From positions 2,480,001 to 2,544,000 of the forward strand of contig NC_019964.1 of the NCBI RefSeq assembly GCF_000328525.1: 64,000 nucleotides of DNA, in the 5' to 3' direction. The notes beneath the pieces were generated by a model. The model worked only from the letters and a program-made list of their open reading frames with translations, was not told the origin of the DNA and did not search any database. Both the position numbers and the translations under genes were made by a program. Within the stretch, counting starts at the first letter, position 1. Every line of letters begins with the position of its first letter. Shown piece by piece: positions 2,549 to 53,222 of this stretch. Source of the DNA: Halovivax ruber XH-70. Its GTDB lineage: Archaea; Halobacteriota; Halobacteria; Halobacteriales; Natrialbaceae.

Positions 2549-3747
2549 CACGCTTCCTCCAGGGCGACGATTCGTTCGTGTCCAGCGGCGTACAGGACGC
2601 CGTCGCCAACGATCGGCTGAGAGAGCCCGTAGGGACTCTCCCACGTCCACAACCTGTCACCCGTCGCCGCATCGAAGGCGGTCACCTCGTTCGTCCAATT
2701 GTACGCCACGTAGACGACCCCGTCGGCGACGATCGGGTCGACCTGGCGGGTGTACTCGACGGACCAGACCTCGTCCCCGCTCGCGAGGTCGATCGCGTGC
2801 AGGAATCCGTCGCCGTCGGTCAAAAAGACGGTGTCGTTCGCGACCGCGGCGCTCCCGTCGGTCGCGTTGCCATCGTATTCGTAGGTCCACCGCGTCTGGC
2901 CGTCCGTCGGATCGACCAGTACGACCGCGTTCCAATCGGGGACGACGACCCCCTCGCTGGTCGCCGTCGGCGGGAGAATCTCGTCGGCGTCGAGTTCCAC
3001 CTCCCACAGGGAATCACCGGAGTCGACGTCGACCGCGTGGAGAAAGTTCGGCCAGCTCGCGAGATACGCGACGCCGTCCCGGACGGCCGGGCGGTGGAGC
3101 GGGTCACCGAACGTGTCACCGACGGTGTGTTCCCACTCGATGCGCCCGCTATCGCCGTGGAGGGCGACGAATCGACGCGTCTCGGGGACGGCCGCGATAA
3201 CCGTGTTATCGACGGCTACCGGTGCCGTCGCTATCGGGGAACCGAGCAATCGACCGGCCGGGTCCCGACCTGGCGCGTGCCAGCGTTCGGCGCCGATCGA
3301 CCAGCCGGCCACTTCGTAGCCACCGCCGGCGTTCAGTCCGAAGATCCCGTCTCGGCCCGTTACCGCCAGCGTATCGGTCTGATAGACGTTGCTGCCGACC
3401 CACGACGGAGCGGAGGTATACGATCCCTTCCTGTCGAAGCGTCGCTCACCGGTCGCTGCGTCGAACGCTGCGTGCGTCCGACGACCGACGGCAAAGAGCG
3501 TCCCGTCGACGAGGATCGGCGGGGCGGGACCGGCGAACGAGTCGTCGGTTTCTCGCTCCCAGCGGACCGCGACGTCGTCGGTCGGTCCCGAGCCGGCGGG
3601 GTTGTGTCCGGTGCCGGCGGCGTCGTGTCGTGGCATGGGCCAGTCCGTCGGCGCCGGTTCGAGTCCGTCCGAGCGAACGGCTCGAACGCCGACAACAGCG
3701 GCAGCGAGCCCACCGGCCCCGGCGACGAATCGGCGTCTGGAGGGCAT
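2548..3747 (-). CDS. Secreted PQQ-type (PQQ-like repeat) beta-propeller protein
   Basis: The protein has 399 aa. Its N terminus, SRRRFVAGAGGLAAAVVG, is a twin-arginine signal, so export is Tat-dependent. The rest is a series of PQQ-like blades with the repeat FDAATGERRF, VDVDSGDSLWEVEL, IDLASGDEVWSVEY and FDAATGDRLWTWES. In this family the repeats form an eight-bladed propeller. PQQ binding is not implied, and haloarchaeal members mostly lack dehydrogenase residues. The gene is coupled to the downstream membrane protein by an ATGA overlap. It is probably an extracellular scaffold or ligand-binding protein. Confidence 0.8.
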   Translation of the reverse strand: MPSRRRFVAGAGGLAAAVVGVRAVRSDGLEPAPTDWPMPRHDAAGTGHNPAGSGPTDDVAVRWERETDDSFAGPAPPILVDGTLFAVGRRTHAAFDAATGERRFDRKGSYTSAPSWVGSNVYQTDTLAVTGRDGIFGLNAGGGYEVAGWSIGAERWHAPGRDPAGRLLGSPIATAPVAVDNTVIAAVPETRRFVALHGDSGRIEWEHTVGDTFGDPLHRPAVRDGVAYLASWPNFLHAVDVDSGDSLWEVELDADEILPPTATSEGVVVPDWNAVVLVDPTDGQTRWTYEYDGNATDGSAAVANDTVFLTDGDGFLHAIDLASGDEVWSVEYTRQVDPIVADGVVYVAYNWTNEVTAFDAATGDRLWTWESPYGLSQPIVGDGVLYAAGHERIVALEEA

Positions 3748-29797: not shown

Positions 29798-30052
29798 CTA
29801 CCCGTCCGTCGAATGTTCACCCCGCCGAGCACGCGCTTTCAGGTGCTCGGCAAACTCGGAGAGGTTCATCGCGGCCGCACAGCCCGGACAGCACAGGCGT
29901 TCTGCGGTCTGGTAGTCGTGCGACAGCGCGGCCGGCGGCTCGGAGACGAGCCGAAAGAGCCGCGCCGGTTCCACGTCCCGATCACACCGATAGCACTCCC
30001 GATTCGGAGTCCTGTCGCCGGTTCCGTCGCTCGTTCGCTCGACGGATGTCAT
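29798..30052 (-). CDS. Small Cys-rich putative zinc-binding protein, copy A
   Basis: The protein has 84 aa from ATG 30052 (MTSVERTSDGTG). The core ECYRCDRDVEPARLFR, then LCCPGCAAAMNLSEFAEHLK, has CxxC and CCxxC pairs for a zinc site. It is paralogous to the gene at 52983, which shares SVER, RECYRCDRDV and the second Cys cluster. Both are preceded by the same structured leader of about 250 nt. Function unknown. It ends 7 bases from the convergent AAC(3) gene. Confidence 0.75.
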   Translation of the reverse strand: MTSVERTSDGTGDRTPNRECYRCDRDVEPARLFRLVSEPPAALSHDYQTAERLCCPGCAAAMNLSEFAEHLKARARRGEHSTDG

Positions 30053-30300
30053 CCGAGTGTCCTCCGCGGTGGCCCAGCTGACCAGCCAGCGGCACTCGGC
30101 CCCCCATCCCCGAAACCGAAACTCTGCGACGGATAGCGATACGACTCTCTAGGTAACGGGCGTGCGAGACCTTTTTGTCTCGATAGTGTCTTTCGGAACA
30201 TGGCTGACAAAATCCCTGCTACAGGATTTGGAAGCCACGTCCCGGGTGTCTCTAGCACCCGGGGCACTTTCGTACCCGAACGGACGGAGCTTCCGTCTGT
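30053..30300 (-). ncRNA. Structured RNA leader or ncRNA, copy A
   Basis: This non-coding stretch lies between a TATA box and the ATG of the small Cys-rich gene, read on the minus strand. Hairpins in order: GACGGA/TCCGTC; CCCGGGTG/CACCCGGG; AAATCC/GGATTT; CGAGAC/GTCTCG with loop AAAAAG; then CCGAGTG/CACTCGG ending at the ATG. The first loop carries GGAAGC, complementary to a later GGCTTCC, so a pseudoknot is possible. A block after the fourth hairpin (CCTAGAGAGTCGTATCGC and on) is nearly identical to copy B (52721-52982). No protein frame explains the conservation. Confidence 0.65.
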
Positions 30301-52516: not shown

Positions 52517-52693
52517 GGCCAGTCCGTTCGTCGAGTGGGTTCGATTGGGAGAGACGGCACGCTCCTGACCACGGACGAGCCAAATTATCTGCGACCGTTC
52601 TTCGTATTATCCTGAGTGGCTACCACGATTGTTCATAAGATCCAAAATGACGGAGTGGTTTGGCGCTTGTTTCTAAATTCCCACCCTGTCCAG

Positions 52694-52708
52694 TAAGTAT
52701 AATATACA
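52694..52708 (+). promoter_or_regulatory. TATA promoter of structured RNA copy B
   Basis: AGTAAGTATAATATAC matches copy A's AGTAACTATATTATCC, and CCACC and TTGTTT occur upstream in both. Centred 20-26 bases before the first hairpin. Confidence 0.55.
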
Positions 52709-52720
52709 GTAGCACGTAGC

Positions 52721-52982
52721 CCACGCTGGAAGCCAGCGTCTCCATCCGTCGCAGGGGACAGCGCTGAGAAATGTCCCGGGTGGTGAGGCACCCGAGACGC
52801 GTGGCTTCCAAACCGCATCGCGATTTGGTTGCCATGTTCCGGAAGACACCATCGAGACAAAAAGGTCTCGCACGCCCATTGCCTAGAGAGTCGTATCGCT
52901 ATCCGTCGCAGAGCTTCGTTTACGGGGATTGGGGGCCGAGTCACTTCGCTCGGTTCAGACCTTCGAATCGCGAGGTGCTCGG
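52721..52982 (+). ncRNA. Structured RNA leader or ncRNA, copy B
   Basis: About 260 nt between a TATA box and the ATG of the second Cys-rich gene. Helices in order: ACGCTGG/CCAGCGT with loop AAG; CGGGTG/CACCCG; CCAAACCGC/GCGATTTGG with loop ATC (one mismatch); CGAGAC/GTCTCG with loop AAAAAG; CCGAG(T)CAC/GTGCTCGG ending at the ATG. GGAAGCC of the first loop complements GGCTTCC at 52803-52809. Helices 1, 3 and 5 differ in sequence from copy A but keep pairing. It may hide the GAGGTG ribosome-binding site. No protein frame crosses it. Confidence 0.65.
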
Positions 52983-53222
52983 ATGAAATCCGTCGAGCGA
53001 GAGCGCGGCGGAGCTGGCGATGTGGCTCGCGATCGGGAGTGCTATCGGTGTGACCGGGACGTGGCACCGCCGCGGCTCTTTCGGGTGGACGTCGAGCCGC
53101 CGGAGATCTTCTCGGCGGACTACGCCCACTCGGTTCGGTACTGCTGTCCGGACTGTATCGCCGCGATGGGGATGCTGGAGTTTACGGAACGGTGGAAGGA
53201 GGAAGCAGGGTTGCTAGAGTAG
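52983..53222 (+). CDS. Small Cys-rich putative zinc-binding protein, copy B
   Basis: The protein has 79 aa from ATG 52983 (MKSVERERGGAG). RECYRCDRDVAPPRLFR and YCCPDCIAAMGMLEF are shared with copy A at 29798, with small changes between. It contains CxxC plus CCxxC. The start follows a helix that abuts the ATG. A Shine-Dalgarno-like GAGGTG is ~8 bases before it, inside that helix. Function unknown. Confidence 0.75.
   Translation: MKSVERERGGAGDVARDRECYRCDRDVAPPRLFRVDVEPPEIFSADYAHSVRYCCPDCIAAMGMLEFTERWKEEAGLLE

Follow-up and report, generated by a model that had tools for sequence, protein, structure and literature searches.

A large family of structured mRNA leaders with a predicted start-codon switch upstream of zinc-ribbon-type microproteins in Halobacteriales

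Among ribosomal proteins, cases of autogenous control by a structured leader are known. Translational riboswitches lie in the 5′ UTR and combine a conserved multi-helix core with two helices that exclude each other, the start of translation being buried in one of them. No natural riboswitch is named as demonstrated in Halobacteriales in the study reporting that a synthetic switch burying the AUG works in Haloferax volcanii (PMC8241225). Haloarchaeal leader ORFs constitute a second related system, since termination-reinitiation coupling at ATGA overlaps has been demonstrated in H. volcanii, where an SD sequence is preferred for reinitiation and not for de novo initiation (PMC6728339). Regarding the encoded proteins, haloarchaeal zinc-finger micro-proteins are small paired-CxxC proteins (PMC11241148). 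In the brz-brb operon, a gene for a zinc-finger protein is joined by one for a small basic protein (PMC3184054).

In the window (the whole 64-kb stretch of Halovivax ruber DNA analysed here), two loci, copies A and B, align with each other from the TATA box through the leader to the end of a Cys protein (Table 1). As the initial annotation had described, near-identical blocks are present in both copies, and helices that vary in sequence between them remain paired. However, the leader, which had been presented as a ~250-nt element that was non-coding throughout, consists of a ~110-nt structured 5′ UTR followed by a 50-codon open frame (ORF1), which takes up about half of each leader in both copies; the most striking conserved blocks, CGAGACAAAAAGGTCTCG and CCTAGAGAGTCGTATCGC, fall within ORF1. 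The element shares with translational riboswitches its 5′-UTR position, a conserved multi-helix core with compensatory substitutions and, by computation only, an expression platform of mutually exclusive helices at the start. Unlike them, it belongs to no Rfam 15 class, would bury an SD-less AUG, has a hairpin ~20 nt inside the coding region and was found only in Halobacteriales. The ATGA overlap and the SD use recall the reinitiation leader ORFs of Haloferax, but ORF1 is short, fast-evolving, lies under a structured leader and carries an RNA hairpin. In the same way, the downstream microprotein (ORF2) resembles the paired-CxxC micro-proteins, and the gene pair recalls brz-brb; in contrast, ORF2 falls into no Pfam or NCBIfam family over cut-off, and no such leader is described for these systems in the available text of the two reports.

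Table 1. Features of copies A and B, in positions of the window
Feature	Position	Strand	Basis
TATA box, copy B	52698..52706	+	sequence
RNA element core, copy B (P1-P4 up to ORF1 AUG)	52724..52836	+	covariance-model match 79.1 bits, E 9.7e-16
P1 5′ arm, copy B (UGGAAGCCAGCGUCUC)	52727..52742	+	pairs with 52794-52810; covariation
P2 hairpin, copy B (GGGACA/UGUCCC)	52755..52777	+	covariation
P3 hairpin, copy B (GGGUG/CACCC)	52778..52793	+	covariation
P1 3′ arm, copy B (GAGACGCGUGGCUUCCA); alternative partner of start region	52794..52810	+	co-evolution test, folds
P4 hairpin, copy B, just 5′ of start codon	52808..52828	+	covariation
ORF1 start region GCCAUG, copy B; complementary to GUGGC 52801-52805	52831..52836	+	co-evolution test, folds
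ORF1, copy B, 50 aa leader ORF (MFRKTPSRQKGLAR...)	52834..52986	+	weak protein-level selection
P5 hairpin, copy B (CGAGAC/GUCUCG), within ORF1, ~20 nt past A of AUG	52853..52870	+	covariation, stability
P6 helix, copy B, before ORF2; 3′ strand overlaps SD-like GAGGUG	52936..52982	+	pairing
ORF2, copy B, 79 aa CxxC/CxxC zinc-ribbon-type microprotein	52983..53222	+	reading frame, alignments, structure model
RNA element core, copy A	30199..30298	-	covariance-model match 59.4 bits, E 7.1e-11
P1 5′ arm, copy A (GACGGAAGC)	30289..30297	-	sequence
P1 3′ arm, copy A (GGGACGUGGCUUCC)	30230..30243	-	sequence
ORF1, copy A, 50 aa	30049..30201	-	reading frame
P5 hairpin, copy A	30165..30182	-	stem-loop pattern
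ORF2, copy A, 84 aa CxxC/CCxxC microprotein	29798..30052	-	reading frame

The core of the fold is a long-range helix, P1 (5′ arm UGGAAGCCA..CGUCUC with GAGACG..UGGCUUCCA), which encloses P2 and P3, and hairpin P4 stands just before the AUG; GAAA precedes the P2 3′ strand in 144 of 173 elements. The pairing between a loop GGAAGC and a conserved GGCTTCC, which had been read as a pseudoknot, is real but corresponds to P1 itself. Likewise, the former helix 3 is P4, which covariation supports. The former helix 1, a hairpin formed locally in A and B, is not conserved: the initial 30 nt fold no better than shuffles (−5.68 vs −5.81 kcal/mol). RNAalifold recovered P3 alone on the first MAFFT alignment; the helices were then set by hand in a 47-sequence alignment, followed by model-fitted alignments. 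In the independent MAFFT seed alignment, 88.1% of the cells pair and 47 cells show double changes (16.7 ± 3.4 when shuffled). The model-fitted alignment, which includes distant families, leans to structure and consists of related sequences, gave compensatory changes on both sides of 27 of the 30 pairs, with 314 double-change cells (75 ± 7 shuffled), a covariation score of 0.323 (0.113 ± 0.005 shuffled) and 91.9% of cells paired, this last value falling to at most 52% once the partner was slid. The effect size and the sliding control leave little doubt that the core covaries. Note that the invariance of P3 in the seed is partly due to the search pattern; in distant families its sequence varies and its pairing is kept. 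An H-type pseudoknot in which the P2 loop would pair with the strand on the 5′ side of P2 (CGC/GCG) was rejected, as the native pairs scored 8.42 vs 8.25 ± 0.17 after permutation. Since the elements fold at a mean z of −3.7 relative to dinucleotide shuffles, and the expected number of exact cores per window is 0.00, a chance origin is excluded.

Rfam 15 gave no match at gathering score in the 64-kb window and none even at E ≤ 5 over 52690–53000, and no published description of this RNA family was found in the open-access literature. The proposal of an undescribed structured RNA is upheld by this result, together with the strong compensatory change. However, copies A and B are not a simple duplicated pair, since the Halovivax ruber genome carries 23 copies by BLAST and 24 by R1, a first covariance model built on 47 sequences (E ≤ 1e-3). 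Homologues are indeed numerous in Halobacteriales. R1 matched 87 of 125 Natrialbaceae genomes and 26 of 29 genera, with 1 to at least 30 matches per genome, the 30 best matches being scored. Exact-core matches with names belong nearly all to Natrialbaceae (Halovivax, Natrinema, Natrialba, Halostagnicola, Halopiger, Natronorubrum and others), and the scattered ones in unrelated bacteria look like chance. Divergent members are found in several other Halobacteriales families, e.g., in Haladaptatus upstream of SWIM zinc-finger genes; a second covariance model (R2) matched 112 of 392 genomes and 45 of 95 genera at E ≤ 1e-4. In a phylum-wide sample of 295 genomes, every match fell within the order. 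The element is thus an RNA family without Rfam entry, very large (24–30 copies per Halovivax genome, hundreds of members) and, within the genomes sampled, confined to a single order.

The P1 3′ arm shows complementarity to a stretch made up of the ORF1 AUG and the nucleotides immediately 5′ of it, and both sides change together: GGCUUC occurs with GAAGCC, GGUCUUC with GAAGACC in Haladaptatus (e.g., L241), GGUUUC with GAAACC in L132 and L061, where the P1 5′ arm is altered as well, GGGGUUC with GAACCC in L254, and GGCAUC with GAUGCC in L176, a contig of a viral collection. Arms matched with their own start regions score 15.85 vs 14.20 ± 0.21 for permuted pairs (150 permutations, maximum 14.74), and for the non-canonical arms only the values are 14.23 vs 11.46 ± 0.38 (500 permutations, maximum 12.5); this test addresses sequence preference flanking the AUG, but the sequences are related, and such a preference could account for part of the complementarity. 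When the P1 5′ arm was blocked in predicted folds, the 3′ arm paired with at least 5 nt of the start region in 153 of 171 elements, and the mean number of paired AUG bases rose from 0.90 to 2.33. Two mutually exclusive folds, with the start codon exposed (ON, P1 closed) or buried (OFF), are shown by these computations, in line with the riboswitch-like character first suggested for the leader. The median energy difference between the two is 5.3 kcal/mol in favour of ON, in an energy model that represents 37 °C and 1 M NaCl and not the haloarchaeal cytoplasm; an exposed start codon is therefore the predicted default, and because P1 is also transcribed first, OFF may form only rarely or may depend on an active trigger.

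We propose, with moderate confidence, that the element is a cis-acting translational switch at the mRNA 5′ end, initiation being SD-less at ORF1 and reinitiation SD-assisted at ORF2. The transcript would start close 5′ of P1, as suggested by the fixed TATA spacing (in 108 of the 141 copies in which a TATA was found, the final one precedes the element start by 30 nt), and P1, P2 and P3 would form the conserved three-helix core. With P1 closed and its 3′ arm occupied, the ORF1 start codon, between P4 and P5, would be largely free; with P1 open, the 3′ arm would pair with the sequence before and including the AUG, thereby extending P4 and burying the start codon. P5, which is part of the module, would stand at the leading edge of the initiating ribosome. 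Ribosomes having initiated without SD sequence would traverse ORF1, mainly a leader ORF, terminate at the ATGA and reinitiate with an SD on the zinc-ribbon microprotein of ORF2. Both folds, each with its covariation, are established by computation, as are the location of P5, the ORF overlap and the SD use; we infer that the cell toggles between the two folds. The genes associated with the element suggest no ligand.

The P5 hairpin lies ~20 nt past the A of the AUG, inside ORF1, and 128 of 130 pattern-matching sequences share one offset. One of its pairs alternates between A-U (about 75 sequences) and G-C (about 50), besides two G·U and one A·C mismatch, and this alternation turns the amino acids R/L into G/P. 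The stability excess over shuffles is limited to the windows +12 to +18, with −4.9 and −4.0 kcal/mol in Natrialbaceae, −2.1 and −3.1 kcal/mol in 14 elements of other families with unrelated proteins, and little excess in Haladaptatus. The fixed position of P5 relative to the AUG and the energetic preference for ON would also suit a constitutive initiation or stability element, in which an SD-less start between P4 and P5 is presented to the 30S and the sequestor complementarity is a by-product; indeed, haloarchaea initiate leadered mRNAs without SD by a route reported as unknown (PMC3986360). A pure recruiting element would, however, have no need for a start region that tracks the changes of the P1 3′ arm across families, and we consider such a constitutive role rather unlikely.

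The ORF1-ORF2 junction bears on the second half of the proposed switch. In copies A and B, the TGA of ORF1 overlaps the ATG of ORF2 as ATGA. Of 114 ORF2 starts, 80 lie at −4 and 98 have an SD match of ≥4 nt in front of them, whereas 10 of 114 ORF1 starts have one; these overlap and SD counts, read as SD-less de novo initiation at ORF1 and SD-assisted reinitiation at ORF2, fit the Haloferax measurements (PMC6728339). Among the 173 elements ending in AUG, 115 are followed by a short ORF1 and a Cys-type ORF2, 26 directly by a Cys-type protein (some being ORF1-ORF2 fusions) and 32 by neither (several look degenerate or cut off). In three elements (L216, L219 and L223), ORF1 and ORF2 form one fused frame, so their split is not essential. 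The last helix, which had been thought to control access to the start, is P6 at the ORF1 3′ end in Halovivax; it includes part of the SD region before ORF2 and is paired in 21 of 21 copies but covaries weakly. Control is instead predicted to act mainly at the ORF1 start codon, and P6 may at most gate reinitiation at ORF2. Two small overlapping frames could also suggest a type II toxin-antitoxin pair; Pfam scans gave no match to a family of that kind.

As for ORF1 itself, 14 pairs picked for similar flanks gave a pS of 0.075 in codons 1–13 vs 0.267 later, and a pN/pS of 0.75 in codons 14+ vs 0.37 in ORF2, which does show selection on its protein. For ORF1, these values point to a leader ORF constrained by its RNA more than to a functional protein, and a conserved ORF1 protein was rejected given such weak selection; a first test on paralogs detected no third-position excess in distal ORF1. 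The frame could nevertheless encode a weakly constrained peptide.

The ORF2 proteins belong to two ribbon types. The type 1/2 zinc ribbon has invariant C20, C23, C55 and C58 in 44 sequences, and the shorter type 3 (CPxCG...PCGC) has C14, C17, C37 and C39 (CxxC then CGC) in 30 sequences. Both show the paired Cys of haloarchaeal zinc-finger micro-proteins, and the window copies exceed the size of such proteins (<70 aa), while many type 3 copies are shorter. Single-protein scans assigned ORF2 to no Pfam or NCBIfam family over cut-off, and whole-alignment scans gave weak scattered matches only. The type 1 structure model reached a pLDDT of 75.7. The best PDB match of type 1/2, to which the ORF2 of copy B (52983-53219, +) belongs, is archaeal eS26, at insignificant values (sequence profile E 0.054, fold E 0.13). 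An eS26 identity was rejected, the hhalign score of 76.0 not being above that of a zinc-ribbon control (71.9); the likeness is only a lead, because type 3 scores about the same against type 1/2. In Saccharolobus, eS26 disfavours leadered mRNAs. As in ribosomal-protein leaders, ORF2 follows a structured leader and faintly resembles a ribosomal protein; unlike in these leaders, no downstream ribosomal-protein gene was recognised, the Pfam eS26 model (PF01283) giving nothing over cut-off in 21 haloarchaeal genomes, and haloarchaea are reported to be without eS26 (PMC11698992).

Cys/Zn-type ORFs follow 141 of the 173 elements with AUG, which may suggest autoregulation, where the encoded zinc protein, or a ribosome carrying it, would bind P1–P3/P5 and stabilise one state, the product being the trigger. 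Zinc ribbons often bind RNA, and the insignificant best match of type 1/2 to eS26 would point the same way. However, this likeness does not rise above its control, and the Pfam eS26 model gave nothing over cut-off. Moreover, the same RNA core precedes different proteins, namely the two ribbon types, SWIM fingers and a provirus protein that lacks a Cys motif, and autoregulation appears improbable to us. With still less confidence, and as a speculation, the element might be a translation-state sensor, a start-codon switch read by the ribosome, whose zinc microproteins act on the 30S and feed back on the 20–30 sister mRNAs.

The many dispersed copies per genome, some of them degenerate and without intact ORFs, could be expected of a stand-alone or trans-acting RNA, or of a mobile RNA element merely located upstream of genes. 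Elements occur on plasmids too, as well as on one contig of a viral collection; neither two exact-pattern scans nor two distant BLAST searches against phage records turned up further viral copies. A trans-acting role, which the initial annotation had envisaged, is not supported, since the fold is anchored on the start codon and continues into ORF1, with ATGA coupling to ORF2. Moreover, several of the 14 similar-flank pairs join copies of two Halovivax species whose flanks are 84–94% identical, which suggests inheritance in place and would speak against a mobile element. Altogether, we hold this explanation to be very unlikely. That conservation reflects only a protein-coding ORF1/ORF2 family without RNA function, as the ORF in half of the reported leader might suggest, is refuted computationally, because the strongest covariation lies 5′ of any conserved ORF and synonymous sites are depressed in the P5 codons.

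Several loci have particular arrangements. In the genome of Halovivax ruber itself, two copies (L042 and L050) are degenerate, one with ORF1 cut to 9 codons, whereas the other lacks ORF2 and has its P2 loop enlarged by an insert of ~60 nt. Natrinema pallidum (L103) has two tandem copies, at 2828-2929 and 3322-3423, 494 nt apart. On the plasmid of Natrinema sp. SYSU A 869 (H20) and in similar records for many Natrialbaceae matches, ORF1 and ORF2 are absent from the plasmid gene tables, which are incomplete. Elements in other families and on plasmids often adjoin winged-helix, PIN or ParE genes. As an example, the element on the viral-collection contig (L176:8510-8604; IMG/VR contig IMGVR_UViG_3300026986_000020) heads a non-Zn gene beside a divergent winged-helix gene, and the contig also has an integrase-like gene, judged by eye from the sequence. 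In Haladaptatus (L241, L243-L246, L248-L250, L260 and L263-L269), copy-specific palindromes flank the TATA of the SWIM zinc-finger gene promoters; at several of these loci a winged-helix gene stands in divergent orientation, in some cases accompanied by a PIN toxin gene. The overall layout looks as though every copy were under a repressor of its own. At L257 and L259, the first gene 3′ of the element encodes a Cys-motif protein; at L259 the following gene shows a weak RAMP similarity (Pfam E 0.034), and a PAPS-reductase-like gene is found close to L257. Type IV CRISPR operons, possibly present at these two loci, were not retained, as PADLOC gave no match and the RAMP hit in Pfam was weak.

Structured leaders have been thought untypical of haloarchaea, and this RNA family contradicts that view for several families of the class. 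In addition, two mostly unannotated families of zinc microproteins are brought to light. The family provides a natural construct set for how haloarchaeal ribosomes choose an SD-less internal start codon, and it allows one to ask whether a hairpin ~20 nt downstream helps in this choice, and whether archaea use translational switches.
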